Positions 51,258 to 64,000 of a DNA stretch of 64,000 nt are shown here, piece after piece; within the stretch, counting starts at the first letter, position 1; each line of letters opens with the position of its first letter. The position numbers and the translations under genes were made by a program. The stretch covers positions 221,318 to 285,317 of the forward strand of contig DS990260.1 in assembly GCA_000155435.1 (NCBI GenBank). The letters are read 5' to 3'. Source of the stretch: Clostridiales bacterium 1_7_47FAA. Lineage in GTDB: Bacteria; Bacillota; Clostridia; Lachnospirales; Lachnospiraceae. The notes beneath the pieces are model-generated. The model was not told where the DNA came from. It saw nothing but the letters and a program-made list of their open reading frames with translations, and did no database searches.

Positions 51258-52661
51258 TTAATTCTCCCTGGCAGCCAGCCAGGGCAGGATGAACCCAAGC
51301 CCCACCAGCACAAATGGGGTTACGATGTTGAGCACCAGCTGGAACAGGTCATCGGAATAGATACCTGTGATACAGGCAAATGCCGTAAAGCCGAAACACC
51401 AGATTCCCACCAGGGTACCGGCTGTCCTGCCCTTTAAGAACCGGTACTGGGCGTGGAAGGCATCCCCCGCCCTCTTAAGCGCTATATAGGCCACGAATAC
51501 CCACAGGTAACGAAGGGGCATGCAGACCGAGTTGACCTTTACCAGCCAGCGCACCAGCACGTCCACATTCCGGATGCCGAAGGCAGGCACGATGATCAGG
51601 ACGCAGACAATGAGCATCACCAGCCTGTGTCCGTTTACATAGGTGCCGTGTTCATTTTTCTCAAACATCTTCCTGGGTATGAAGCGCGTATCCGCGCTGT
51701 CAAGGAGCATGCGCAGGGGGGCGTCCACGGACAGCACCATAACGGAAAACTGGCCGATCAGGTTGGTGAGGGCGTATACAATCACAAAGAAATTACCCAT
51801 ATGATAGTACTCCCCAAGCCTCTGGAAGGCGTAATAGGCGCCGTTTGTCATCAGGTCCGCCGGGATATGGTCTGAATCAAACATCATCCCAAGGGCAATG
51901 GTGCCAAGTATGGCGGTCACTGCCACCATAAGGGCCAGGGCCGCCATTCCCTTGGAGAAATCCCTGGATGGGTCCTTCATCTTGTTGACATAGGGGGATA
52001 TTTTCTCGCATCCCCCCACTGCGAAGACCAGGATGGAAAGTCCCATGAAGAAGCTTAAGTCAAAGCTAGGGATGAATGTCCTCCATGACCAGTCAATCGA
52101 CATGAAGGTTCCTCCTGTCAATGCCGGGGCAGCCACCATCATTGCAATGAACAGCATGGACATGATGAACATGGTGGAACCGGCCAGGGCGGACAGGCGC
52201 TTAAGCACGCCCATGCCCTTGCTGGACAGGTACATGGCAAACAGGAATATGACCAGACAGATTAACTGCATGACCGTGGTATCCATACTGCTGGCCCTCT
52301 TGTCCTGGAACAGCGCCCAGCTGGCCGCAATCACCGTGGAATTGGGCTTCTGGGAAATATATGGCATGTGCACCACCCAATAGGTCCAGCCAGCATAGTA
52401 CGCCATCCTGGGACCTATGGTTTCCTGAATCCAGGAACTGACGCCACCGCCCGCATCCTTGAAGGTGGAGCCAAGCTCGCCTACCATCAGGGCATACGGC
52501 ACAAAATAGATGGCAAATATCAGGATCCAGGACACAATCGCCCTGAGGCCCCCGTATTCCGAAAACCCGTTGATGACATTCCCAAAGCCCCAGACCGTGG
52601 AAAATGCCATGAATGCAAGGGTATGCCATAAAATCTTTTTATCGTTGTCCCTCTGTCCCAT
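51258..52661 (-). CDS. APC-superfamily amino acid permease
   Basis: A 467-residue transporter with about 12 helices. It resembles the glutamate:GABA-antiporter / YjeM-like branch of the APC family (GFGNVINGFSEYGGLRAIVSWILIF, VGELGSTFKDAGGGVSSWIQETIG, FAVGGCEKISPYVNKMKDPSRDF). Substrate cannot be read from sequence. It is monocistronic, separated from the upstream catabolic operon by a terminator, with a GGAG 10 bases before the ATG at 52661. Confidence 0.9.
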   Translation of the reverse strand: MGQRDNDKKILWHTLAFMAFSTVWGFGNVINGFSEYGGLRAIVSWILIFAIYFVPYALMVGELGSTFKDAGGGVSSWIQETIGPRMAYYAGWTYWVVHMPYISQKPNSTVIAASWALFQDKRASSMDTTVMQLICLVIFLFAMYLSSKGMGVLKRLSALAGSTMFIMSMLFIAMMVAAPALTGGTFMSIDWSWRTFIPSFDLSFFMGLSILVFAVGGCEKISPYVNKMKDPSRDFSKGMAALALMVAVTAILGTIALGMMFDSDHIPADLMTNGAYYAFQRLGEYYHMGNFFVIVYALTNLIGQFSVMVLSVDAPLRMLLDSADTRFIPRKMFEKNEHGTYVNGHRLVMLIVCVLIIVPAFGIRNVDVLVRWLVKVNSVCMPLRYLWVFVAYIALKRAGDAFHAQYRFLKGRTAGTLVGIWCFGFTAFACITGIYSDDLFQLVLNIVTPFVLVGLGFILPWLAAREN

Positions 52662-52772: not shown

Positions 52773-52824
52773 AAAAAGGCAGCACCGGACCGGTGTCATG
52801 TGACGCCGGCCTGAAGCTGCCTTT
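52773..52824 (-). terminator. Terminator ending the PrpD/molybdoenzyme operon
   Basis: Minus strand AAAGGCAGC and GCTGCCTTT close a stem with a GC-rich inner part, followed by TTC. It lies within 10 bases of the last gene's stop and ends the eight-gene operon. Confidence 0.85.
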
Positions 52825-52831
52825 ACCAGAC

Positions 52832-53809
52832 CTAAAAAACCATCTTCTGTCCAATCCCCATTTCCAGCGCCCGCTCATAGACGGTCATGGCGCAGTTCAC
52901 ATCGTGGGCCCCCATGCCCATATGCGTGGAAACTATGATTTCATCCTCCCGTTCCCGGCCAGGTACCTTTCCGGTGAGAAGTTCCGTCATATCGCCGGAT
53001 ACGTCCCCTTCTTTCAGCAATCCGCCTGGATTCAGCCGTGGTGACCGTAAAATATGGGCGTCCGGCCTGCGGTATCCCAGGTACCATTTGTCTGCCCTTT
53101 TTCCAATCTGCGGGTCCAGGTCCCGGAATCCCTCGATTCCAATCACGGTTGCGCCGGGCTTTAGCATATCCCAGGTAACAAGGGGTGTCTGTGCGCCGGA
53201 TGCCATAAGGATTAAATTGCTTCCGGTTACTGCCTTTAAAGGACTGTCACAGGGTATCACCTCCACCCTGTCCTTCAGTTCCTCCCTTACAGCCTCTATT
53301 GGCCCGGTACTCCGGCTGAAGATACGGACCTGCCTGATACAGGGGAACTGGGTAAGCATCCCCTTGATGCCGGACCTGGCCTGGGCACCGCATCCGCAGA
53401 CCGAGAGGACCTTTGGCCCTGGCAGGCACAGGTGCCTGGCCTGTACCACGCCATGGCCTCCGGCCGTGCGCATGGCAGTGATGTTCATGGCCCCTACAAG
53501 GGCTATGGGGGACCCGCTTTTTGTATCACTTAAGATAACCAGGGTTCCGTGACAGAATGGATAGCCGGGCAGCGGGTCCACATACGTGCTGATCCATTTA
53601 ACCCCTGCCGCGTTTCTGTAGTGGAGGATGGCCGGCATGGAATGAAAATTGTTCATTTTCGCTTCATCCACATACATGAGCGCCATATCCCCCACCGTGA
53701 TGTCCCCCAGGCCGATATGGAGGAAGGTGTCCTCTGCTGCTGCAATCGCATCAGCCGGGGTCAGCAGGGAACACACATCTTCCTCATTTAAAAATAGTAT
53801 ATGATTCAT
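52832..53809 (-). CDS. Ornithine cyclodeaminase / mu-crystallin family protein
   Basis: About 325 residues. Family members reduce imines or dehydrogenate amino acids with NAD(P) (ornithine cyclodeaminase, alanine dehydrogenase, ketimine reductases). Seen: ILFLNEEDVCSLLTPADAI, GVKWISTYVDP with the active-site Lys, TAMRTAGG and the nucleotide motif CGCGAQARSG. ATG 53809 has GGTAGGAAA upstream; an ATG at 53845 shares bases with the preceding stop (TGATG) and may be used instead. Last gene of the operon. It suggests an imino or amino intermediate, but the substrate is unknown. Confidence 0.85.
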   Translation of the reverse strand: MNHILFLNEEDVCSLLTPADAIAAAEDTFLHIGLGDITVGDMALMYVDEAKMNNFHSMPAILHYRNAAGVKWISTYVDPLPGYPFCHGTLVILSDTKSGSPIALVGAMNITAMRTAGGHGVVQARHLCLPGPKVLSVCGCGAQARSGIKGMLTQFPCIRQVRIFSRSTGPIEAVREELKDRVEVIPCDSPLKAVTGSNLILMASGAQTPLVTWDMLKPGATVIGIEGFRDLDPQIGKRADKWYLGYRRPDAHILRSPRLNPGGLLKEGDVSGDMTELLTGKVPGREREDEIIVSTHMGMGAHDVNCAMTVYERALEMGIGQKMVF

Positions 53810-53844
53810 TTTCCTACCCCCGCTTCCTACATCTGTAATTAACA

Positions 53845-54366
53845 TCAGGTCCGCTTCCTTATGGATTGGATCAGTAGGTTGCATGCCCTGTCACTTCCGC
53901 TGTCCCGGTACTCCTCCTCAGTCACACAGGTCAACGCCTCAAAGGAACAGGCCCTTACACAGGCCGGCTGCAGCCCATGCTTCACCCGCTCATTGCAGCC
54001 GTCGCACTTGACCATCTTCCCATCCGTGACACGGTATCTGGGGGCGCCGAAGGGGCAGGCCATGGCGCAGCTTTTACAGCCGATGCAGTTGGTGTTATCA
54101 TAAACAGTAAAACCTGTTTCCGGGTCCTTGCCCAGGCATCCTGCCGGACAGGCATCCACACAGGGAGCATCCGTACAGTGCATGCAGGCCGCGGACAGGT
54201 AGGCGCAGGTATTGCTGCCGTCCGCCTCCTCTATCTCCTGGTCAAAGGTTTTACGGTAACAGGTATCGCCTGCCGTCAGGTCAATATCATTCTGGTCCAT
54301 GCAGCCCATCATACAGGCAGAGCAGGCACAGCACTTATCCGGATTAAAAACAAAAACATGTTTCAT
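53845..54366 (-). CDS. DmsB/NrfC-type four-cluster ferredoxin subunit
   Basis: A 173-residue iron-sulfur protein with 16 cysteines in four ferredoxin-like motifs: CCACSACMMGC, CMHCTDAPCVDACPAGC, CIGCKSCAMACPFGAP and CDGCNERVKHGLQPACVRAC. This is the electron-transfer subunit normally paired with a DMSO-reductase-family catalytic subunit. Its start overlaps the molybdoenzyme stop by one base (TAATG). No membrane anchor subunit and no signal peptide are present, so the complex should be soluble and cytoplasmic. Confidence 0.94.
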   Translation of the reverse strand: MKHVFVFNPDKCCACSACMMGCMDQNDIDLTAGDTCYRKTFDQEIEEADGSNTCAYLSAACMHCTDAPCVDACPAGCLGKDPETGFTVYDNTNCIGCKSCAMACPFGAPRYRVTDGKMVKCDGCNERVKHGLQPACVRACSFEALTCVTEEEYRDSGSDRACNLLIQSIRKRT

Positions 54367-56522
54367 TATTCAACCTCCTGGCATTTGCGGATATTACAGC
54401 GCATTCCCTTGAATCCGGGAAAACCGGAATAGGGATCCACATGATTGCGTCCTATCAGTTCGTTTACATTGGCCTCCGTATAACCGTGGAGCGTCAGGAT
54501 GACACCCGGCTTTATCTTTCCCGTGACCTTGGCCTTCATGAAAATCTCGCCGTAAGGACTTGATAATGCAACCCTGTCCCCTTCCCTGATTCCCAGCCTC
54601 CTGGCATCCTCCCTGTGAATCTCACAGGTGGGGTCGGGCCGGATACTGCGCAGCCACGGGGTCTCATGTGCCCTGGAATGGATGGCATGGGCCAGCCTTG
54701 CGCCGGTGCATAGATAGAATGGATATTTCTCCTTTGTCCCAGGGTCATTCTGATCTTCCAGTGAATCCCGGTAATCCGGCAGCGGATTCAGGCCAAAGGC
54801 AGGGTCTATGGATGCAATGGCAGTGGAATAAAACTCAAACTTCCCTGTGGCGGTCTTAAATCCATTCTCCAGGCACGTTCCCGGCTTCACAGGCCACTTG
54901 GCGGCAGGGACCTTCACCGGCAGGCTGCTTGCCTTTAAATCCGCAACCGTCAGTCCGCAGCCCTCAATCATCCAGTCCGCCGACGCCTCATAACCGGCCT
55001 TCAGGTACGGGTCATCCAGGTCCATGATGCGGGCCAGGCCGCACAGGATATCCACATCGGATTTAGACTCATAAAGGGGCGGGATTACCGGTTTTGTAAA
55101 GGTCAGGTAACCGCCCTGATACGCCTTTAATTCCCCCCTCTCAACCGAGGAGCAGGCCGGCAGGACAATATCCGCATACTTGGCTGTCATGGTCATGAAC
55201 ATGTCCGTGTCCACAAAGAAATCCAGCTTATCCTTCATGGCAGAGAGAAGCTTATCTGTCTCAGGAAACATTTTGGCGTTCATTCCCAGCGCAAAGATGG
55301 CCTTTACCGGATAGGGTGTGCCCTCCTCCAGCTGGCGGAGCAGGTCCATTGCCTGGAATTCATCAAACTGGGCATTCCACAGGGGGAACCGCCCCGCCCC
55401 GATACGCTCCCCGTCCTTGGGATAACGGTCGGACCTGAACTCATGCTCCCTGACCTTAAAGCCGGCGGGCTTATGCAGGTAGGTCGGCGGATTGGGGACA
55501 TTGCCGCCCGCCCTGTCAAAATTGCCGGTAAGGGCGGACAGGCACAGGATGGCCCTGTGGGAGTTAAACCCGTTAATGTGATGGACCAGGGCGGAGGCGG
55601 AAAAGTTGGTACAGGCCGGCCCGTTTGTGGCATAGAGCTTTGCCGCCTCATAAATCAGATTGGGTTCAAGACCTGTGATGCCGCTTACCCTGTCCAGGGG
55701 ATACTGGTCCACCATTTCCTTATACTGGTCAAAACCGTATGTATATTTTTCAATGTATTCCCGGTCCGCCCAGCCATTGTCAATGATCAGCTTTGCCATC
55801 CCTAAGGCCAGCGCCCCGTCGGTACCCGGATTGATTTTCAGGAAGATATCAGCCAGGTTCCTGGATGCCGGGGTATCCCGTATGTCGATGATGATGACCT
55901 TCCCTCCTCTCTCCCTCAGTTTCTGCACGCCTGCCACGGAGAGATGGGCGGAATAATAGCCATCGTAATTCCAGCCTAAAAATGTATTGGCATGGCCCAT
56001 GTCAGGTCCTGCGCCGCATCCTGCGGTCACCTTGTCCGCAATTACCTTTGAGGCGCTGCAGGTACTGTCATCCGTGCCAAAATTCACGCTTCCGAACACA
56101 TGGGCAAAGCGGTGGAAAATAGGGCGGTACCACTTGCAGTAACCGCTGAAGAAGGCCACGGAATGAGGGGAATAGGTTTCCTTGACCTGATTCAGCTTTT
56201 CTGCAATGATCCGGTAAGCCTCATCCCAGCTGATCGGTTCGAACCTGCCTTCCCCCCTTTCCCCTATGCGCTTTAAGGGCGTCCTGATGCGGTCCTCCCT
56301 GTAAATGTAGTTTCTAAGCGCGGAACCTTTCGTGCAAAGCCTGCCATGGTTATAGGGATGCTCCGGCGTACCCTCCACCCGGATGATTTCCCCGTCTTTC
56401 ACATAGCAGTCCACACCGCAGTGATGGCCCGGACTGCAGATTGCGCACAGGGAATGTCTTATTTCAATTCCGGTATCATCACCCGGAATCTTTGCCTTTA
56501 TTTTTTTCTCAAGTTCAGTCAA
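54366..56522 (-). CDS. Molybdopterin (bis-MGD, Mo or W) oxidoreductase, DMSO-reductase family
   Basis: A 718-residue catalytic subunit. N-terminal 4Fe-4S site: Cys26-x2-Cys29-x5-Cys35-x27-Cys63 (or Cys39 as third ligand), a wider spacing than the common x2-x3-x27. LCTKG follows, then probable metal ligand Cys155 in DDSTCSAS, GWNYDG, IDIRDTPAS and the C-terminal pterin domain (LCTGARLAHAIHSRAHETPWL). No Tat signal, so it is cytoplasmic. Nearest recalled relatives are thiosulfate-reductase/acetylene-hydratase-like members; substrate unknown. TTG start at 56522 follows AGGAGG by 8 bases. Confidence 0.93.
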   Translation of the reverse strand: MTELEKKIKAKIPGDDTGIEIRHSLCAICSPGHHCGVDCYVKDGEIIRVEGTPEHPYNHGRLCTKGSALRNYIYREDRIRTPLKRIGERGEGRFEPISWDEAYRIIAEKLNQVKETYSPHSVAFFSGYCKWYRPIFHRFAHVFGSVNFGTDDSTCSASKVIADKVTAGCGAGPDMGHANTFLGWNYDGYYSAHLSVAGVQKLRERGGKVIIIDIRDTPASRNLADIFLKINPGTDGALALGMAKLIIDNGWADREYIEKYTYGFDQYKEMVDQYPLDRVSGITGLEPNLIYEAAKLYATNGPACTNFSASALVHHINGFNSHRAILCLSALTGNFDRAGGNVPNPPTYLHKPAGFKVREHEFRSDRYPKDGERIGAGRFPLWNAQFDEFQAMDLLRQLEEGTPYPVKAIFALGMNAKMFPETDKLLSAMKDKLDFFVDTDMFMTMTAKYADIVLPACSSVERGELKAYQGGYLTFTKPVIPPLYESKSDVDILCGLARIMDLDDPYLKAGYEASADWMIEGCGLTVADLKASSLPVKVPAAKWPVKPGTCLENGFKTATGKFEFYSTAIASIDPAFGLNPLPDYRDSLEDQNDPGTKEKYPFYLCTGARLAHAIHSRAHETPWLRSIRPDPTCEIHREDARRLGIREGDRVALSSPYGEIFMKAKVTGKIKPGVILTLHGYTEANVNELIGRNHVDPYSGFPGFKGMRCNIRKCQEVE

Positions 56523-57792
56523 CGGATTTTCCTCCTAAAAATTCTATAAAGCCTGCCGGAAAGCCCTTATCCATCAGATAACAGATGCTCTGGACATCCA
56601 GACCGGCATCCGGGCTTTTCAGTGATTTGATGAAAATGCTTTTTAACAGGCCATTGCTGTCCGAAGAGTTAATGACATTGATACACTGGATCCTGCCCTT
56701 GTTTTTCGTCCCGCGGATATAATATGTTTCATCCTCATATTCATAAACCAGGTCCTCCGGGCCGCAGGCGCTGATATCCCCGATGCTGATAAAATCATAG
56801 TCCAGATAATGGGCCAGGTTCACAAGCACATTGGCGTCAAATTCCATCGGCACACCAGCCATGTTCGCCCCGGCTGTCCGTCCCTGTTTGACGGCATTCA
56901 GCCATACCCCTATGTTCCTGGTTTTCCCGCTTTGGGTGTCAATGGCCTCGCAGCAGTCCCCGGCCGCATAAATCCCCTCATAATTGGTCCGCATCCTGGA
57001 ATCCACCACAATTGCCCGTCCCATTGCGAGTCCGCTGTCCCGTACAAATGCAGTATTGGTCCGCACGCCCACGCAGACCGCAATCAGGTCGGCCGTAAAC
57101 CGTTTTCCGCTTTCCATGACGGCTGACAGGCGTCCATCCTCCTCCTGCTCAATGGCCGAGAGCATCTGGCCGCAGGATACGGCCACCCCCTTTTGTTCCA
57201 GGTCTGCCTGGACCCTTTGGGCGGTTTCCTCAAATGCAGCGGTATAAAACATCCAGGGCGCCCCGTCCACCAGGGTGCAGGGAATGTTCCTGGACCTCAG
57301 GTCCTCCACCACCTTGATTCCCACCCAGGATGCGCCTATCACCACACAGCTGCGCACCTTTCCCGAGTCCAGCTTCTGCTTAAGATCCACGGCGTCCTCC
57401 GGGGTCCTCATCTTAAATACGCCGGGCATCTGGATTCCGGGGACAGGAGGCATGACGGCAGACGCCCCGGTGCTGATTAATATTTGATCATAAACCTTCC
57501 GGCTGCCGTCTGAAAGTATTATCTTCCGCTCACCGGGAACCAGTCCTGCCACCGGCGTCCGGCAGTTCACATTCAAATCAAGGGTTCCCGCAATCTCCTC
57601 AAGGGTCCCGAAGGGAAACATCCCCTCATAGGAAAGGGAGTCCTTCACATAATAGGTTGTGAGCATGGGATTGCACGGCCCTGTATCCGTATCCGAATAC
57701 ACATCAATGACAGCCTGCGGATCCAGTCTGCGTATTTCCCTGGCAGCGCTGTAACCAGCGCCGCCAAAACCGATAATGGCTATTCTTTTCAT
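56515..57792 (-). CDS. FAD-dependent NAD(P)/disulfide oxidoreductase (NADH oxidase / CoA-disulfide reductase-like)
   Basis: A 425-residue flavoprotein: N-terminal FAD motif GFGGAGYSAAREI, Cys40 in TGPCNPMLTTYYV where CoA-disulfide reductases keep their redox Cys, NAD motif VVIGASWVGIKV, and GVRTNTAFVRDSG plus YAAGDCCEA. It starts 12 bases after the PrpD gene and its end overlaps the molybdoenzyme start by 8 bases. It is probably the NAD(P)H module feeding or draining electrons through the ferredoxin subunit; that is context inference. Confidence 0.9.
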   Translation of the reverse strand: MKRIAIIGFGGAGYSAAREIRRLDPQAVIDVYSDTDTGPCNPMLTTYYVKDSLSYEGMFPFGTLEEIAGTLDLNVNCRTPVAGLVPGERKIILSDGSRKVYDQILISTGASAVMPPVPGIQMPGVFKMRTPEDAVDLKQKLDSGKVRSCVVIGASWVGIKVVEDLRSRNIPCTLVDGAPWMFYTAAFEETAQRVQADLEQKGVAVSCGQMLSAIEQEEDGRLSAVMESGKRFTADLIAVCVGVRTNTAFVRDSGLAMGRAIVVDSRMRTNYEGIYAAGDCCEAIDTQSGKTRNIGVWLNAVKQGRTAGANMAGVPMEFDANVLVNLAHYLDYDFISIGDISACGPEDLVYEYEDETYYIRGTKNKGRIQCINVINSSDSNGLLKSIFIKSLKSPDAGLDVQSICYLMDKGFPAGFIEFLGGKSVD

Positions 57793-57804
57793 AAAGTCCT
57801 CCGC

Positions 57805-59277
57805 TTAGGCAAGCATTCCGCTAACAGAAGCAATATCGTCCACATGTTCAATATTGCAGATTGTCTCAATGACCTGCTCCAGCTTTTCTCCCTGCAGCAC
57901 AGGGGATGCCTGGATACGGAACCTGCTTACAAACTCGCCGCGTTCCATCATATTGGCCGGATGGCCCGGATGGCAGTCCATGGAGCCGGTAAAGGTCCGT
58001 CCGTCCTTTAACGTTACCGTGATTGTCTTCATGGGATAAGAACCGTTCCGGAACTGCTTAAAGCCCGTCATAGGCGAATCCTCGGGAGAGGTTCCCGGCT
58101 TCACCTTCTTAGCCAGTGCAATGACCTCCCTGTCCTTCATCATCTCCGGCGTATACCAGTAGGCGCCGGGATTGGGATGCAGCAGCATGGTGGCGATTAC
58201 ATAGGGGGCGGAGAACTGGGCATGGGTTACGGAGGTAAAGCCTTCATCCGGAGCCCACATGCGGTTGCGGATAGGCGGGTCCAGGATGATTTCCTCAATG
58301 TCATCCGGTCCGAATCCGTGTTCCTTTGCCATGCCGTTCACCAGTTCCACCGGGGTCTGCACCCACATATTGGCGGGCCAGTGCTTAAGCAGGGTATCCA
58401 TGATCAGATACCGCTCCCCCAGCTCCCTGGTAAGCCAGGACAGGTCCGCTTCCCCGGATCTGATTGTGGTATCGGCTGAACCGTTGGAGCCGTCATCCCC
58501 GCAGATGACGCCGGTGTAGCATCTGGGCTCATCCAGGGCATCCCTCTGGTTATGGATTCCTTTCTCCACGGACTTGGCAATCAGGAAGCCGTCCCTGGCC
58601 CGGTAACCGTGCTCATAGTGATAGAAATCCGACATGGTAGTTGCATGGTAGGCAACCGGAAGGGTGCTGCACTCACAGCCCATTCCGATGGCCTGGTTGA
58701 TCTTCCTGGCATCCAGTCCGTAAATCTTGACAACCGGCAGGATGCAGGCAAATATCTGCCAGCTGGTCAATCCCCAGCCCTTTGTCTTCCACCGTTCGTC
58801 CGATGGCTGGACCGCCATGGCAATGCGCTGGTATACCTCGTACCCGGCCACGATGGCCGTAATCAGGTCCTTGCCGCTTTTATGCTTTTCCTCTGCCGCC
58901 AGCCATGCGCAGGGAATCACGCCTGCCGCCGGATGACCGGTCCAGGAACAGTCCTCCCAGTCCAGGGCATCGCTGATGGTACCCAGGACAAGGGCCGCAT
59001 TGACCGCAGCCATTTTCCCATCCATGCCCCAGACCGTTGTAGGGCCGCCGGGGCCGCCGTTGGCCTCCCTGGCCATTTTCCCTGCTTTTTCTGCAATGGG
59101 GGTTCCCTTGGCAGCCAGGGCCGCGCCAATGGTCTGAAGCAGGATCATCTTGGCCCGCTCCACCACCTCCGGCGGGATGTCCTCATAGGATAATTGTTCC
59201 GCATACTCCGACAGTTCCTGGGTATATGTAGTTGGAGTAAGGAAATCATTGTCTTTATATAACCGGTTATACCGCAT
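57805..59277 (-). CDS. MmgE/PrpD family protein (copy 1)
   Basis: A 490-residue member of the MmgE/PrpD family, which includes 2-methylcitrate dehydratase, cis-aconitate decarboxylase and iminodisuccinate epimerase. The core reads ISDALDWEDCSWTGHPAAGVIP, with the acidic and His positions used by the family, then AGYEVYQRIA and KHWPANMWVQTPVEL. It has an extra Trp/Ser-rich stretch (SDERWKTKGWGLTSWQ) absent from copy 2. ATG 59277 follows GAGGAGG. Substrate unknown; it is cytosolic. Confidence 0.9.
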   Translation of the reverse strand: MRYNRLYKDNDFLTPTTYTQELSEYAEQLSYEDIPPEVVERAKMILLQTIGAALAAKGTPIAEKAGKMAREANGGPGGPTTVWGMDGKMAAVNAALVLGTISDALDWEDCSWTGHPAAGVIPCAWLAAEEKHKSGKDLITAIVAGYEVYQRIAMAVQPSDERWKTKGWGLTSWQIFACILPVVKIYGLDARKINQAIGMGCECSTLPVAYHATTMSDFYHYEHGYRARDGFLIAKSVEKGIHNQRDALDEPRCYTGVICGDDGSNGSADTTIRSGEADLSWLTRELGERYLIMDTLLKHWPANMWVQTPVELVNGMAKEHGFGPDDIEEIILDPPIRNRMWAPDEGFTSVTHAQFSAPYVIATMLLHPNPGAYWYTPEMMKDREVIALAKKVKPGTSPEDSPMTGFKQFRNGSYPMKTITVTLKDGRTFTGSMDCHPGHPANMMERGEFVSRFRIQASPVLQGEKLEQVIETICNIEHVDDIASVSGMLA

Positions 59278-59279
59278 AC

Positions 59280-59350
59280 TTGTACCTCCTCGTCATGAGC
59301 ACTCAGCGCCTGTCTTTTAGGCGCTTACGGCGCCTGTTTTTGCGCTGATG
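59280..59350 (-). other. Hairpin-bearing gap between the two PrpD genes
   Basis: In the 154-base gap, minus strand AGGCGC-CGTAA-GCGCCT is a perfect hairpin flanked by a second GACAGGCGC copy and CAGCGC, so several alternative pairings exist. It is followed by AAAAGACAGG rather than a T run, so it is not a clear terminator. It may process or stabilise the polycistronic message. Confidence 0.55.
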
Positions 59351-59431
59351 TGCAATACATTCCACTGATATGGAGCCGGGTCTTTTACCAGCTTCCCGCA
59401 GTGGCTGAATGATAAAAAATGGAACGCCGGA

Positions 59432-60811
59432 TTAATGGAAGAAACCGGGAAGCACGGACGCATCCGGGCATTCCTCCAAATGACAGATGCACTCGATGGC
59501 GCCTTCTGTTTTCTCCTTGGACAGGATATTTTTTGTTTCCAGGCGGAAACGTTCCTTAAATTCATCCCTTGTCAGCATGTAGCGCGGGTGGCCCGGATGG
59601 GTGAAGGCACTCTCCGTATACTCGGTCCCATCCTTTAAACGGACAATCATGAACTTCTCCGGATGCTTGCCGTCAATCAGGTCCTTAATGAATTTCATCC
59701 CCGACATTTTCACAAATCCATCTGCCTTTACCTTGTTCATCAGGGCGATGATCCGCGCATCCTTCATGGTTTCGGGCTGATACCACAGCGCTCCCGGCTC
59801 CGGATGATACATGGCGCAGGCCGTCACATACGGAATGGAGAACTGGGCCTGTGTCAGGGACTCATATCCTGTCTCACTGTACCAGTGGCGGAAGGCAACG
59901 GACGGGCGTATGATGATTTCGTCCACCTCATCCGGGTTAAAACAATATCTGGTCACCAGACGGGAAGCCAGCTCCGCATAGGTCTGGACAAATACATTGG
60001 CAGGCCAGTGCTTTACCAGAAGCATATCCATCATCATCCAGTGGGTCCCCAGTTCCTTTGTGAGCCATTCCGGTTCCTGATATCCGCAGTGGGCCAGATA
60101 TGCGGTGGGGTCGTCAAAGGCGTCCTCCATGTTCTCGATACCATTTAAGGCGGTCTTAATCATGGTCACGCAGTTCTCCATGCGGTAGCCGTACAGGTAA
60201 TTCAGGGAATCCGACATGGTGATTTCGTGGACATTGGCCGGTATGATGGCACAGGCGGTTCCCACGCCAAAGGCCTGGTTCATCTTCTCTTCAGGAAGGT
60301 CCAGGAGCTTCATCAGCACCGGCAGGATCCCAAAGATATTGTAGCTGGCAATGCTGCTCCTCCCCGCCAGCGCCACCCTCTGGTACACCTCGTATCCAGC
60401 CACCACGGCGGTCAGGAGTTCCTTCCCGCTCCGGTGCAGCACCTCCGAGGCAATCACGGCTGCCGGGATCACACCTGCGGACGGATGCCCTGTCACGGAA
60501 CAATCCTCCCAGTCCAGGGCGTCCCCCATTGTGCCTGCCGTAAAAGCAGCAGCCTCCCAGCTTACCTTCTTACCGTCCGCCCAAAGGGTAGCGCAGCCCT
60601 CTTCCCCCGGGCTCATTTCCTTGGAGATTTCCATTGCATCCCTGACCTGCTTTAGCTGTGCGCTGCACAGGCTGACGCCGCAGGTCTGCATCACCATCAT
60701 TTTCGCCTGCTCAATGACTGCAGGCGGAATATCCTCATACTTCAGTGTCTTTATAAAATGACACAGCTGTTTCGTCATATCCGTTGTTATTTCATGAACA
60801 TTAAAACCCAT
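59432..60811 (-). CDS. MmgE/PrpD family protein (copy 2)
   Basis: A 459-residue paralogue of the next gene, sharing long blocks (GDALDWEDCSVTGHPSAGVIPAA, AGYEVYQRVALAG, KHWPANVFVQTYAELA) but clearly diverged. The family's barrel and helical domains are complete. Possibly the two copies form a heteromer or act on successive isomers. ATG 60811 has GGAGG 7 bases upstream and is 19 bases after the racemase-like gene. Function beyond family is unknown. Confidence 0.9.
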   Translation of the reverse strand: MGFNVHEITTDMTKQLCHFIKTLKYEDIPPAVIEQAKMMVMQTCGVSLCSAQLKQVRDAMEISKEMSPGEEGCATLWADGKKVSWEAAAFTAGTMGDALDWEDCSVTGHPSAGVIPAAVIASEVLHRSGKELLTAVVAGYEVYQRVALAGRSSIASYNIFGILPVLMKLLDLPEEKMNQAFGVGTACAIIPANVHEITMSDSLNYLYGYRMENCVTMIKTALNGIENMEDAFDDPTAYLAHCGYQEPEWLTKELGTHWMMMDMLLVKHWPANVFVQTYAELASRLVTRYCFNPDEVDEIIIRPSVAFRHWYSETGYESLTQAQFSIPYVTACAMYHPEPGALWYQPETMKDARIIALMNKVKADGFVKMSGMKFIKDLIDGKHPEKFMIVRLKDGTEYTESAFTHPGHPRYMLTRDEFKERFRLETKNILSKEKTEGAIECICHLEECPDASVLPGFFH

Positions 60812-60830
60812 TTTCCATCCTCCTTGTTAC

Positions 60831-61538
60831 CTAAATTGTGAACAGCCTGCCCAGCCCGTCAATCTTATCATTCACCCTGCAGTGGCGCAGGCAGGACCAC
60901 AAGCTGGCCTGATGGCTGGTAATGACCGGCATCCCAAGATCCTCCTCCAGGATTTCTACCAGCTCCATGGTGGCCAGTCCCATACAGCTTAAGAAAAACA
61001 CCTCGGCCCCTTCTGTTTTCAGTTTCTTGGCCTGGCGGTATAAAAAGGCCTTGCCCGGATGGGAGTATTCACCCACCCGGTTGAATCCCACTCCGGTAAT
61101 GGAGGTGACCGTGATTCCATTGTCCTCCAGGAACTTTTTCTCAGCCTGGTTGGTTTCTTCCGGATAAGGGGTCATGACCACGGTCCTGTTAAGCCCCAGG
61201 GCCCTAAACGCCTCTAACACCGCCGTGCTGGTGGTCAGCCCCGGCCATCCGCAGGCCCTCTCAATCCGTTCAATACATTCCTTATCGAATCCATAACCTT
61301 TGATGCAGCTGCCTGAGGTACAGCCGAAAAGCACCACATCATGACGCTTTTTCTTATACATCCTGGCGGCTTCCTCCAGCTGGTCCGACAGATAAATCAA
61401 CCCCTCCGGCGTCGGGCCGGGGAAGGAAAGCCGGGTACTGTCAAAGGAGACCCCTTCCGGGGCATATTTATTAAATGCATATTCCACCTGATCGTCCAAG
61501 GGGGCGATCACACCGATTCTTGCCCGTAAACTATACAT
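60831..61538 (-). CDS. Asp/Glu racemase superfamily, maleate-isomerase-like (copy 1)
   Basis: A 235-residue two-lobed protein of the Asp/Glu/hydantoin racemase superfamily. Cys73 in FGCTSGSCIKG and Cys185 in FFLSCMGLAT sit where the two catalytic cysteines of maleate cis-trans isomerases and racemases occur. SFPGPTPEGLIYLSDQLEEAA, STAVLEAFRALG and HQASLWSCLRHC are also characteristic. ATG 61538 follows GGAGG by 8 bases; a TTG six codons earlier overlaps the previous gene. Likely isomerises or decarboxylates the operon's acid substrate. Confidence 0.86.
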   Translation of the reverse strand: MYSLRARIGVIAPLDDQVEYAFNKYAPEGVSFDSTRLSFPGPTPEGLIYLSDQLEEAARMYKKKRHDVVLFGCTSGSCIKGYGFDKECIERIERACGWPGLTTSTAVLEAFRALGLNRTVVMTPYPEETNQAEKKFLEDNGITVTSITGVGFNRVGEYSHPGKAFLYRQAKKLKTEGAEVFFLSCMGLATMELVEILEEDLGMPVITSHQASLWSCLRHCRVNDKIDGLGRLFTI

Positions 61539-61552
61539 GTCCCATTCCTCCT

Positions 61553-62272
61553 TCAAAGCGTAAACAGTCTGCCCATTTTAGGAAGCTTTGCCCCTACCCG
61601 GCAGTGGCGCAGCGCGCTCCATAAAGTTGCCTGATGACTGGTGACCACGGGTATCTTAAGGGCAGTCTCCAGATCATCGATGATTTCCATGGTAGTCAGG
61701 CCCATACAGCTTAAGAAAAAGGTATCTGCCCCCTTTAAATCCATGTTGATGGCATTGCGGTAGAGGAAATATTCATCCGCCTCCTCAAGCTTATGTCCGT
61801 CCCGGCGTATAGAGCTTACGTCCATGCCGATGATGCTTGTAACCTCATATCCATTGTCCTCTAAAAACTTCTTTTCCGCCTCATTGGTTGCCTCCGGATA
61901 AGGGGTTAATACAGCCGCCTTCTTTGTTCCCAGCGCCTGAAAAGCCTCCAATACCGCGGTGCTGGTGGTAAGGCCCGGTATATTGCAGGCATTTTCTATC
62001 CTGCGGATGCATTCCTTATCCCAGTTGGCGCCCTTGATGCAGCTGCCGGATGTGCAGCCGAACACCACCAGGTCCACATCATATCCTTTATACCTGGCAG
62101 CCGTCTCCTCCAGCTGGTCCGTTAAGATCATAAGTCCTTCCGGGGTCGGCCCCGGAAAGTTGATTTTCATTGATGCAAAGGAAACTCCTTCCGGTGCATA
62201 AATGTGAAACGCATGCTCGGCATTTTCACTCATTGGGGTAATCAGCCCGATTTTCGCTCTCCAACCATACAT
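61553..62272 (-). CDS. Asp/Glu racemase superfamily, maleate-isomerase-like (copy 2)
   Basis: A 239-residue paralogue of the next gene with the same paired cysteines (Cys73 in FGCTSGSCIK, Cys189 in FFLSCMGL) and the same FPGPTPEGL and STAVLEAFQALG blocks. It is the first gene of the eight-gene operon, with GGGAG 9 bases before the ATG at 62272. In-frame codons continue up to 62389 but have no ribosome site, so the short start is preferred. The 170-base leader is long. Confidence 0.86.
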   Translation of the reverse strand: MYGWRAKIGLITPMSENAEHAFHIYAPEGVSFASMKINFPGPTPEGLMILTDQLEETAARYKGYDVDLVVFGCTSGSCIKGANWDKECIRRIENACNIPGLTTSTAVLEAFQALGTKKAAVLTPYPEATNEAEKKFLEDNGYEVTSIIGMDVSSIRRDGHKLEEADEYFLYRNAINMDLKGADTFFLSCMGLTTMEIIDDLETALKIPVVTSHQATLWSALRHCRVGAKLPKMGRLFTL

Positions 62273-62441
62273 AATTCGCTTCTCCCATTCCTTTCCTGTA
62301 GTCATGCCCCTGACCCTGTCTGCTCCTGCCATCATTCTAGCAACCCTTGGCATCTTTTGCCATCCGATATTTTTGGTATCCATTAGCAAAGAAACGTGCA
62401 GGCAGATTCTTTGGAATGTCTTTTATTTTTCCGCACAGATG

Positions 62442-62470
62442 ATATAATAGCCCCAACCTGCTCCTTGCAA
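62442..62470 (-). promoter_or_regulatory. Promoter of the catabolic operon
   Basis: Minus strand TTGCAA (62470-62465), 17 bases, TTATAT (62447-62442). CCTTGCA is repeated 14 bases apart at 62463 and 62477, overlapping the -35, a possible activator site. The -10 is shared with a plus-strand TATAAT at 62443-62448. Confidence 0.65.
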
Positions 62471-62515
62471 CATTGTCCTTGCACCCTGCCCCGGGCGCCG
62501 GACAAATTAACCGGC
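62443..62515 (+). promoter_or_regulatory. Divergent promoter and operator-like repeats before the permease
   Basis: Plus-strand TATAAT at 62443-62448 is a perfect -10 but its -35 (TTTTAT near 62421) is poor, suggesting need for an activator. GCCGG (62497-62501) and CCGGC (62511-62515) form an inverted repeat with a 9-base gap between this -10 and the permease start, resembling an operator. No regulator gene is visible in the window. Confidence 0.45.
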
Positions 62516-62562
62516 AGATTAATGCTTCATCTAGTGATACAAAGAATAAGGAGAAGATTGGT

Positions 62563-64000
62563 ATGAAGAAAGGTTATTCACCTATGATGTATGTGCACAT
62601 CATCATCACGCTGTTTCTTATGTTCGGCTTTGGTTTCATTCCGCCCTTTGCCACCCTTACCCCCATGGGTATGAGGCTGTTAGGCACGTTCCTGGGCGTT
62701 ATTTACGGATATTCCACCTGCGAGATCATCTGGCCCTCCCTTTTCGCCTTCATCGCTTACGGCTTAAGCGGGTTCCCGGGCAGCATGAACGCGGGTATAT
62801 CCGCCACCATGGGAAGTTCTACCGTGTTCCAGATCATCACCCAGTACTTTACCGCAGGGGCCATTGTAATATATGGTTTTGGGAAATGGTTCATCCGCTG
62901 GTCCCTGTCCCAGAAGGCATTTAAGGGAAAACCGCTGTTTTACACATGGTGCTTCATGTTCATCTTCATGTGGTCCGCCATTGTATTGAGCCAGATAGCC
63001 ATGGCCCTGCTGCTCTACGCCATCTGGACGGATATCGCTGATTCCTGCGGCTATGACAAGGACAGCACGTTCCGCTATTACGGCTTTGGCGGCATCCTTT
63101 TGTCCATGGTCATGGGCGGAGGGATGATTCCCTATAAGAGCTGGATGCTGGGCCTTGCAACGACCTGGGCCGATGTTACCGGGGAAATCGTCAACCTGGG
63201 ATTCATGTTCCTTCTCACCGGGCTGGTGGGGACCATCGTGATGACGGCTTACGTCATCCTGGGCGCCAAACTTTTCAAGGTGGATTTCAGCATCATGAAG
63301 GGCTTTGACGTGGAAAAAATGGGTGAGGACAGTAAGCATTTAAGGCCCAGGGCCAAACGCATCATCATTGTTTATGTCATCATCATGCTGCTATCCATTT
63401 TTGCCGGGACCTTTACCAAAAACCCGGTTTCCAATTTCGTCAACAATACCCTGACCGTGGGCGGTCTGTACTGCCTGTGCTCCGCCATCCTGATGGTCCT
63501 TCCCAGCGGCGAGGGGGACAAAAAGGCAGCCATTGTGTTTAATGACATCAAGCACTCTGACGCAGCGGTCAGCTGGCCCGTCATCATGATGTGCGCAATC
63601 ACCATCCCCCTGGCCACTGCCATGACCAACGAGGCAACCGGGATCCTTCCTTGGCTTACGGGAATATTCGAACCCTTATTTGCCGGAAGGGGTCCGCTGT
63701 TTATCTTAATCTTCACCATTATCGTGATGATGATCCTTACCAACATCGGGTCCAATATTGCCTTCGGAGGGGCCATGATTCCCGTGGTCAGTCCCTTTGT
63801 AATGGCCGCGGGCATGAACCCGGTCATAGCGGGCGCTGCCCTGATCTGGATTGCCAACATCGGGATTGTCCTTCCCGGCGCATCCGCCCCGGCCTCCATT
63901 TTCCATGGGCGGAGCGAGATACCGGATGCCGCCATGCGTACCAAGGTGGTCTGCTTCGGCGCGCTGCTCATCCTTATAACAACTACCGTTGTATTCTCCA
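62563..64000 (+). CDS. SLC13/DASS-like anion permease (partial, runs off the window)
   Basis: 479 codons are visible and the frame is open at the right edge, so the gene is 3'-truncated by the window. ATG 62563 has AAGGAG 9 bases upstream. About 11 hydrophobic segments are present. The motif LTNIGSNIAFGGAMIPVVSPF and the earlier GGGMIPYKSWM and MTNEATG segments resemble the ion-transporter superfamily (SLC13/DASS, citrate/dicarboxylate carriers). Divergent from the catabolic operon and sharing its promoter region, it is probably the uptake system for the acid processed there. Confidence 0.82.
   Translation, partial: MKKGYSPMMYVHIIITLFLMFGFGFIPPFATLTPMGMRLLGTFLGVIYGYSTCEIIWPSLFAFIAYGLSGFPGSMNAGISATMGSSTVFQIITQYFTAGAIVIYGFGKWFIRWSLSQKAFKGKPLFYTWCFMFIFMWSAIVLSQIAMALLLYAIWTDIADSCGYDKDSTFRYYGFGGILLSMVMGGGMIPYKSWMLGLATTWADVTGEIVNLGFMFLLTGLVGTIVMTAYVILGAKLFKVDFSIMKGFDVEKMGEDSKHLRPRAKRIIIVYVIIMLLSIFAGTFTKNPVSNFVNNTLTVGGLYCLCSAILMVLPSGEGDKKAAIVFNDIKHSDAAVSWPVIMMCAITIPLATAMTNEATGILPWLTGIFEPLFAGRGPLFILIFTIIVMMILTNIGSNIAFGGAMIPVVSPFVMAAGMNPVIAGAALIWIANIGIVLPGASAPASIFHGRSEIPDAAMRTKVVCFGALLILITTTVVFS

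Follow-up and report, generated by a model that had tools for sequence, protein, structure and literature searches.

An inserted 12-gene cassette of Clostridiales bacterium 1_7_47FAA and its possible role in the catabolism of opine-like acids

Introduction

Which compound would require two MmgE/PrpD proteins, two Asp/Glu-racemase-like proteins, two amino acid dehydrogenase-like proteins and a molybdenum- or tungsten-dependent redox chain to be encoded side by side? This question is raised by the right-hand end of a 64,000-nucleotide stretch of contig DS990260.1 (forward strand, positions 221,318 to 285,317) in the genome of Clostridiales bacterium 1_7_47FAA, a relative of Enterocloster; the whole stretch is hereafter designated as the window. 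An earlier note, made from the letters of the window, described eight tightly spaced minus-strand genes at this end, which end at a clear terminator and face a divergent permease gene, and knew no named pathway with the combination. Here we report a computational analysis of the locus and its relatives. The genes belong to a 12-gene cassette, which is a precise insert in the genome and of which ten genes are found together again in distant relatives. We tentatively favour the possibility that the cassette was horizontally transferred, is probably LysR-regulated, and serves for the catabolism of an opine-like iminodicarboxylic acid (i.e., two carboxylated carbons linked via a secondary amine) or a close relative.

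Results

The cassette is a precise insert

Six genus mates were probed for the two genes flanking the cassette, namely that for an amino acid permease on the left and, on the right, the second of two Mur ligase genes. The distance between the two flanks, which includes the gene for the first Mur ligase (~1.46 kb), was ~1.55 kb in four of the genomes (G296, G299, G306 and G309), 2.03 kb in G305 and 6.96 kb in G308, as compared with 15.9 kb in strain 1_7_47FAA. In DNA alignments to G305 and G299, the breakpoints lie at ~52.64 and ~67.12 kb, and the insert therefore spans ~14.5 kb, comprising the eight-gene operon, the permease gene (Perm), a gene of the octopine dehydrogenase family (ODH) and two LysR genes. 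Gene calling gave no further gene inside the insert, whose 12 genes are listed in Table 1. Its G+C content (0.535) is near to those of the two flanks (0.543 and 0.549). The eight genes and the permease gene described earlier stand as a cluster, albeit the cluster continues past the window edge with ODH and the two LysR genes. ODH is part of the cassette, as the orthologous loci keep it at the same place. In G308, a different insert occupies the same site (L097, G308:C1:3622500-3634000) and carries, as judged by eye, genes for a MerR regulator, an old-yellow-enzyme-type reductase and a transposase, so that the site may be an insertion hot spot.

The gene order is conserved beyond the family and the class

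According to the earlier note, the idea of a single cluster would fail if its genes were not co-conserved in other genomes. Ten genes (the eight operon genes, Perm and ODH) keep their order in genomes of other families and of another class, with protein identities of 57-91%, and the idea holds; a chance grouping of the genes is rejected on account of this recurrence. The carriers are Flavonifractor, Pseudoflavonifractor, a rumen Lachnospiraceae bacterium, a Clostridiales bacterium and one genome of another class. We read the relatives by tblastn and codon-scored gene calling, having dropped the picking of longest open reading frames, which gave shadow genes in GC-rich loci. A scan of genome contigs with the catalytic subunit of the molybdoenzyme (Mo) yielded 13 loci, six of which (L035, L036, L038, L040, L041 and L044) are complete, with the eight operon genes in order, the divergent permease gene and ODH. 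LysR genes follow ODH in five of these six, L035 being the exception, and the pieces seen are 30-51% identical to those of strain 1_7_47FAA. As for the remaining loci, L034 is cut by a contig end inside PrpD1, L046 carries two LysR genes, ODH and the operon without the ornithine-cyclodeaminase-like gene (OCD) or Perm, L037, L039, L042 and L045 are rearranged variants, and L043 shows only Mo and the ferredoxin gene (FeS).

A search for PrpD1 in 398 genomes of the phylum gave three positives, i.e., strain 1_7_47FAA, G1407 and G1385. G1407, the genome of another class, holds all ten genes in order (L094; 57-84% identity), accompanied by two LysR genes at 34-37% and a MoeA-like gene adjoining OCD. 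The G1385 locus (L095), a 7.8 kb contig, carries a PrpD gene (30%), ODH (35%) and, by eye, a symporter-like gene. PrpD1 was detected in one of the 295 genomes drawn from the order (at 1e-40), and the cassette is therefore rare. Among 397 genomes of the family, PrpD1 (E up to 1e-50) was found in six, Mo (E up to 1e-170) in 13, and both in five. The hypergeometric p value for this co-occurrence (~1e-7, or 2e-6 without the genome of strain 1_7_47FAA) assumes that both draws comprise the same genomes and is indicative only, because of shared ancestry. The genome with PrpD1 and without Mo is G509, in which no Mo-containing set was present in the 20 kb read; in L090:206-12363 of this genome, PrpD and ODH genes stand with those for an M20 amidohydrolase, a SnoaL-like protein, a peptide-type ABC transporter and a fumarate-reductase/AprA-type flavoprotein.

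PrpD proteins with the divergent signature described below are accompanied by ODH in all 19 evaluable distinct loci (the window, L015, L027, the eight loci L035-L042, L044, L045, L046, L065, L069, L090, L094 and L095), the signature being looser in L095. L034 was left out as incomplete, and L030, L016 and L064 as repeats of L045, L027 and L046, respectively; the PrpD1 matches in G585 and G511 correspond to L041 and L064, respectively. Since most of these loci were found through Mo, only L090, L094 and L095 are independent of it. The stretches read of L090 and L095 contain the PrpD-ODH pair but no Mo module. Genes of the arylmalonate decarboxylase (AMDase) family are present in 15 of the 19 loci. 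The variant loci hold further genes, namely a weakly aspartate-dehydrogenase-like gene in L069, OCD in L065, and a gene for an M20 amidohydrolase in L065 as well as L090.

ODH carries the residues of an opine-type dehydrogenase

ODH shows an NAD-binding and an octopine-dehydrogenase helical domain over its full length, as opine dehydrogenases do, and its alignment with N-(1-D-carboxylethyl)-L-norvaline dehydrogenase (CENDH, 1bg6; 2e-31) covers residues 5-343 of 355. His201, Arg288 and Asp293 of ODH fall at CENDH positions 202, 292 and 297, which we take to be the catalytic set, and none of the three varies in the 22 aligned rows (19 distinct, that of strain 1_7_47FAA included). The second dehydrogenase-like protein, OCD, has its best PDB match in 4m54, a 'putative ornithine cyclodeaminase' (6e-26) that is presumably SbnB. 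The top NCBIfam models for OCD were those for alanine dehydrogenase and SbnB. We rejected its assignment as SbnB (120.6 bits vs a cut-off of 327), archaeal alanine dehydrogenase (121 vs 409), the iminosuccinate reductase BhcD (49 vs 500) and the ectoine utilisation protein EutC (73 vs 472). In L036:12707-13704 of Flavonifractor An306, the OCD homologue is broken over two frames, by either a sequencing error or decay.

A divergent PrpD pair and a two-cysteine racemase-like pair

PrpD1 and PrpD2 both possess the N- and C-terminal MmgE/PrpD domains. Neither qualifies as 2-methylcitrate dehydratase, as the scores against two NCBIfam equivalog models (47 and 18.5 bits for PrpD1, 25 and 26 bits for PrpD2) are to be compared with cut-offs of 950 and 575. 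For the iminodisuccinate (IDS) epimerase of the same family, PMC12290011 lists His85, Asp88, His99, His150, Lys198 and Lys266, and states that the characterised MmgE/PrpD substrates have a 1,4-dicarboxylate in common. In a MAFFT alignment, the two PrpD proteins of the window keep three of the six residues (the equivalents of Asp88, His99 and Lys266), have Asp at the positions of His85 and Lys198, and miss His150; an assignment as IDS epimerase or methylsuccinate isomerase was rejected on this count. The 18 linked PrpD proteins aligned all have Asp at both of these positions and all lack His150, and keep Asp88 in 16, His99 in 18 and Lys266 in 17 (exceptions: L015 D1 and L037 C2). The two invariant residues, Asp103 and Asp217, would accord with a positively charged group on the substrate. 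Shortened second PrpD-like genes lie next to full-length ones at L037:5403-6401 and L039:5400-6398, and the short copy in L037 misses part of the catalytic motifs. The genome of strain 1_7_47FAA has ten places matching PrpD_N, five of which match PrpD1 at 1e-40, and these five all adjoin redox gene sets of the kind described below (the window, L015 and L027).

The racemase-like proteins AmG and AmH had been called maleate-isomerase-like. They do belong to the Asp/Glu racemase superfamily, but are nearer to its AMDase/EutA branch. In the alignment, Cys79 and Cys191 of AmG fall at what we take to be AMDase positions 74 and 188, and both cysteines are present in AmH as well, and in 27 of 27 aligned AmG/AmH rows (24 distinct). 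Cysteines at both positions presumably represent the racemase/isomerase arrangement, and the pair is hence predicted to act as racemases or isomerases, not as decarboxylases. Assignments as AMDase (111.5 and 112.9 bits vs 225, with Cys in place of Gly at position 74) and as EutA (116 and 101 bits vs 318) were both rejected.

The redox trio belongs to a wider clostridial family

The earlier proposal of a soluble flavin-ferredoxin-molybdoenzyme chain, encoded by FAD, FeS and Mo, agrees with what we found: no twin-arginine signal was seen at the N-terminus of Mo, and the operon is without a membrane-anchor gene. Mo has the three Pfam domains and a candidate protein metal ligand of the DMSO reductase superfamily, whose members contain bis-molybdopterin guanine dinucleotide (bis-MGD). 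The predicted Mo/W ligand, Cys155, is found in each of the 30 homologues compared (the window copy included), and is aligned to a cysteine of the best PDB match, acetylene hydratase (2e7z), that we assume to be its metal ligand. Formate dehydrogenase alpha (311 bits vs a cut-off of 666), DmsA (249 vs 778) and PhsA (259 vs 694) were rejected as assignments for Mo. FeS stayed below the cut-off of TIGR02951 (121 vs 214 bits), as did FAD for its best NCBIfam model, which is PadH-like (180 vs 475 bits).

The genome of strain 1_7_47FAA has six Mo matches at 1e-100, and the five with at least 50% identity are all parts of FAD-Mo-FeS sets, PrpD and ODH being present in three (the window, L015 and L027) and other partners in two (L028 and L029). 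In L029 of this genome and L031, L032, L066, L067 and L068 of other genomes, i.e., six of the six loci tested, the trio is accompanied by a PatB-family C-S lyase scoring above the curated cut-off, a label that replaces our initial 'aminotransferase'; an amino acid permease gene lies alongside in three of them (L029, L031 and L066). The PatB pairing suggests molybdoenzymes acting on S-substituted cysteines, possibly their S-oxides. The trio of L077 is partnered by a tryptophanase-like gene. At L028:5081-13753 (contig C105), the trio stands beside genes for a sugar-acid-dehydratase-like enolase-family protein, an amino acid permease-family transporter, a GntR regulator and a nickel-pincer isomerase (group 22, above cut-off). 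UbiD is present at L032, and UbiD-like genes at L077 and L071 (by BLAST only). In a tree of 35 Mo rows, the six PatB-linked rows have a clade of their own (100/98), as do 16 of the 17 PrpD-linked rows (89/74), whose clade also contains L043. The tree follows the pathways well, although not without exception, as the PrpD-linked L069 falls beside the PatB lineage (93/85). With these varied partners, the trio is a redox module that is re-used with different pathways, and the substrate is therefore to be told by the partner genes, not by the trio.

The permease and the layout of the locus

A profile made from 12 Perm homologues matches SLC13A5/VcINDY at ~1e-6 over 140-160 positions in the C-terminal third, and TIGR00785 and CitMHS are matched by three and one of the 12 homologues, respectively. 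The permease had been called SLC13-like: this holds as a distant likeness of the homologues, and no family in Pfam or NCBIfam was found for the window copy up to E 1. Perm would suit a di-anion.

Open reading frame positions and family scans confirm the eight minus-strand genes opposite the divergent permease gene (Table 1), and Pfam likewise bears out the families named earlier. The operon is transcribed in the order AmH, AmG, PrpD2, PrpD1, FAD, Mo, FeS and OCD, followed by the terminator, where position and fold both agree with the clear terminator noted before. AmH probably starts at ~62272 instead of 62389, and OCD at ~53809 instead of 53884, as the tblastn matches of the orthologues begin there. 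The spacings after this correction are -4, 19, 154, 12, -8, -1 and 35 bases; the genes are tightly packed as described, while the apparent overlap between FeS and OCD disappears with the new OCD start. A simple terminator scan found 12 sites in 14 kb vs 13.3 expected from shuffles, i.e., no excess, and caught only the inner part of the hairpin, and was replaced by folding. From the neighbouring LysR genes alone, LysR control of the divergent promoter is expected; an alignment of eight divergent intergenic stretches gave no convincing conserved motif that could represent a shared LysR box.

Outside the cassette, the gene at 51258-52661, beside the terminator, encodes the amino acid permease (YjeM/GadC-like) conserved as a flank in all six genus mates. 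The rest of the window appeared, by eye, to hold largely housekeeping genes.

Table 1. Features of the cassette in window coordinates. Positions beyond the window edge are those in locus L009 plus 61682, for which the overlap was checked.
Feature	Position	Strand	Evidence
Intrinsic terminator of the operon	52775..52824	-	fold -40.4 kcal/mol, z -6.9, 0/200 shuffles as stable; T run after
OCD, ornithine cyclodeaminase/mu-crystallin family, putative NAD(P)-dependent imino/amino acid dehydrogenase	52832..53809	-	PF02423 5e-39
FeS, four-cluster ferredoxin subunit (DmsB type)	53845..54366	-	Fer4_11; four Cys motifs in sequence
Mo, bis-MGD oxidoreductase catalytic subunit	54366..56522	-	PF00384/PF01568/PF04879
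FAD, NAD(P)H-type flavoprotein (Pyr_redox_2)	56515..57792	-	PF07992 4e-50
PrpD1, divergent MmgE/PrpD protein	57805..59277	-	PF03972/PF19305 and signature residues
PrpD2, divergent MmgE/PrpD protein, 43% identical to PrpD1	59432..60811	-	PF03972/PF19305
AmG, two-cysteine AMDase/EutA-branch racemase or isomerase (predicted)	60831..61556	-	PF17645 2e-34
AmH, second two-cysteine AMDase/EutA-branch racemase or isomerase (predicted)	61553..62272	-	PF17645 9e-33
Divergent promoter region, operon/permease	62273..62562	.	intergenic sequence
Perm, distantly DASS/SLC13-like anion permease	62563..64000, on to ~64023 past the window	+	profile of homologues
ODH, octopine-dehydrogenase-family gene, follows permease	~64059-65126, past the window edge		PF02317 2e-20
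Two LysR genes	past ODH, to ~67131, outside the window		family scan

Discussion

A possible route for an opine-like acid

From the gene content we infer a substrate class, a direction, a reaction for the molybdoenzyme and an order of steps, as follows. The DASS-like permease would import a di-acid, and PrpD1/PrpD2 together with AmG/AmH might invert or isomerise its alpha-carbon centres. ODH and/or OCD would then oxidise the C-N bond, yielding an amino acid and a 2-oxo acid with formation of NAD(P)H. The FAD-FeS-bis-MGD set could link NAD(P)(H) to a two-electron conversion of the di-acid or of a compound derived from it, and would most simply serve as an electron sink, a role that is our guess. 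Such a route is in line with the presence of ODH, OCD and the racemase pair, with the OCD and weakly aspartate-dehydrogenase-like genes of the variant loci, and with a permease for di-anions. Among the substrates suggested by the earlier note, an imino acid (iminodisuccinate-like) gains support, since the cassette holds an ODH with the CENDH-type His/Arg/Asp set. The idea of aconitate or maleate is weakened, because each of the 18 linked PrpD proteins aligned has lost or exchanged three of the six IDS epimerase residues, and because the racemase-like pair sits in the AMDase/EutA branch.

Several observations weigh against an opine-like substrate. (i) The N-terminal domain of ODH also matches ketopantoate reductase models, and OCD reaches 121 bits vs cut-offs of 327-409. 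(ii) Several of the six residues are also absent from the E. coli PrpD in that MAFFT alignment, which makes their absence from the linked PrpD proteins weaker evidence, and alignment error or real variation may limit the comparison; in addition, PrpD1 has its best PDB match in cis-aconitate decarboxylase (70 bits vs 39 for IDS epimerase 2hp0). (iii) No AMDase-family gene is present in the stretch read of L027, L045, L090 (20 kb) and L095 (7.8 kb contig). (iv) The match of Perm to the DASS/SLC13 family is distant. (v) The relatives of the Mo module are partnered by PatB, tryptophanase-like, UbiD-like and sugar-acid-dehydratase-like proteins, and the module itself does not point to opines; the opine-like substrate alone leaves the need for a bis-MGD enzyme unexplained. 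(vi) For the whole cassette, the nearest characterised members are remote.

Other explanations

The cassette may also be read as a reductive electron sink. The bis-MGD enzyme would then use NADH to deoxygenate a nitrogen-containing acid (an S-oxide, N-oxide or alpha-hydroxyl compound), the skeleton of which would be made ready or disposed of by the products of the remaining genes, in the manner of the Actinobacterial catechol dehydroxylases. This explanation, which overlaps with the catabolism of an opine-like acid, is rather doubtful, albeit the best of the alternatives. It draws on the flavin-FeS-Mo chain, the five trio loci of strain 1_7_47FAA, the radiation of the trio alongside different partners (six PatB-family C-S lyases above cut-off) and the conserved candidate Cys ligand. 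Nevertheless, its reductive direction is presumed, and the best PDB match of Mo is acetylene hydratase, an enzyme that catalyses no net redox reaction. Moreover, the PrpD-ODH core gives no hint of an oxygenated substrate, and in L090 and L095 it is found with no Mo module in view.

Alternatively, and in line with the aconitate/maleate idea of the earlier note, the substrate might be a nitrogen-free branched, unsaturated or hydroxylated di- or tricarboxylic acid, which the PrpD proteins dehydrate or isomerise, the AMDase-like proteins rearrange by shifting a double bond, and the bis-MGD chain reduces, with ODH acting as a 2-hydroxy acid or ketopantoate-reductase-like dehydrogenase. We regard this as unlikely. 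The 1,4-dicarboxylate shared by known MmgE/PrpD substrates (PMC12290011) and the cis-aconitate decarboxylase match of PrpD1 would speak for such an acid, as would the DASS-like permease, a regulator with a sugar-diacid recognition domain beside a type B locus, and the fumarate-reductase-type flavoprotein of L090, a locus without the Mo module. On the other hand, half of the IDS epimerase residues that hold or act on the dicarboxylate are replaced or missing in every linked PrpD aligned, OCD and an opine-dehydrogenase-like gene would be unexpected, and the opine-type His/Arg/Asp set of ODH is invariant.

Opine dehydrogenases also make metallophores such as staphylopine, and a biosynthetic cassette (e.g., for an opine-type metallophore or an osmolyte) could obtain a D-amino acid from the two racemases; an EamA-like transporter gene is present in the variant locus L065. 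We consider it very improbable, as family scans of the window cassette gave no nicotianamine synthase, exporter or metal transporter, the permease gene paired divergently with the operon is DASS-like, and both PrpD and the Mo module would be left unexplained. Degradation of an ectoine-like or cyclic imino acid, to which the EutA (116 and 101 bits), EutC (73 bits) and DoeB2 scores (250 and 277 bits for the M20 genes of L065 and L090) might point, is the least probable of all, since these are far under the curated cut-offs (318, 472 and 550, respectively) and family scans of the window cassette gave no other ectoine gene.

What the cassette may mean

Returning to the catabolism of an opine-like acid, the proposal may be extended to a new anaerobic opine-type pathway of gut Clostridia with internal redox balance, in which the NADH from ODH/OCD is spent by a soluble bis-MGD reductase. 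The latter would represent one branch of a clostridial NAD(P)-linked radiation, the other branches of which, paired with PatB C-S lyases, would have different amino acid derivatives as substrates, and the whole would be a clostridial counterpart of the catechol dehydroxylases. This extension is speculative, and we hold it to be improbable as it stands. In the open-access literature, searched by titles and the beginnings of abstracts (most subscription papers and all preprints lie outside), we found neither a description of this gene combination, in agreement with the earlier remark on a named pathway, nor an anaerobic gut pathway for opine-like compounds; the papers found on this theme name no function for the clostridial bis-MGD trio family or the ODH-tied PrpD clade. 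The parts are familiar, and their combination seems undescribed. Opine-like compounds that may reach the gut include seafood opines and Maillard-type carboxyalkyl amino acids, and, if the proposal is true, it supplies genes and a testable substrate class for their fate. Whatever the substrate is, the analysis defines a divergent PrpD clade tied to ODH and a clostridial bis-MGD trio family with several members per genome in Enterocloster.

Comparison with known systems

Of the characterised opine-type enzymes, CENDH is alike to ODH in both the near-full-length alignment and the His202/Arg292/Asp297 set, whereas only the first 130 residues of ODH align with octopine dehydrogenase (3c7a; E 6e-6). 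The PrpD proteins of the window have the MmgE/PrpD domains and the Asp88, His99 and Lys266 equivalents in common with IDS epimerase (2hp0/2hp3) and (S)-(R)-methylsuccinate isomerase, but differ from IDS epimerase at His85, His150 and Lys198 and carry the new invariant Asp103 and Asp217. AmG and AmH share the Amdase domain and the Cys at AMDase position 188 with AMDase, EutA and maleate isomerase, and have Cys where AMDase has Gly74, presumably as in racemases and maleate isomerases.

For the redox module, PMC11574389 describes molybdenum-dependent catechol dehydroxylases of Eggerthella and Gordonibacter, members of the DMSO reductase family, with a bis-MGD alpha and a four-cluster FeS subunit. 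The cassette has the same make-up of these two subunits, a likeness of architecture; the Eggerthella enzymes have a membrane anchor, in place of which the cassette encodes a flavoprotein as the third member. Urolithin C dehydroxylase (Ucdh) of Enterocloster bolteae (PMC12771579) belongs to the xanthine oxidase family instead of the bis-MGD enzymes and is encoded by different genes, but is an NADH-using cytoplasmic molybdoenzyme from the same genus as strain 1_7_47FAA.

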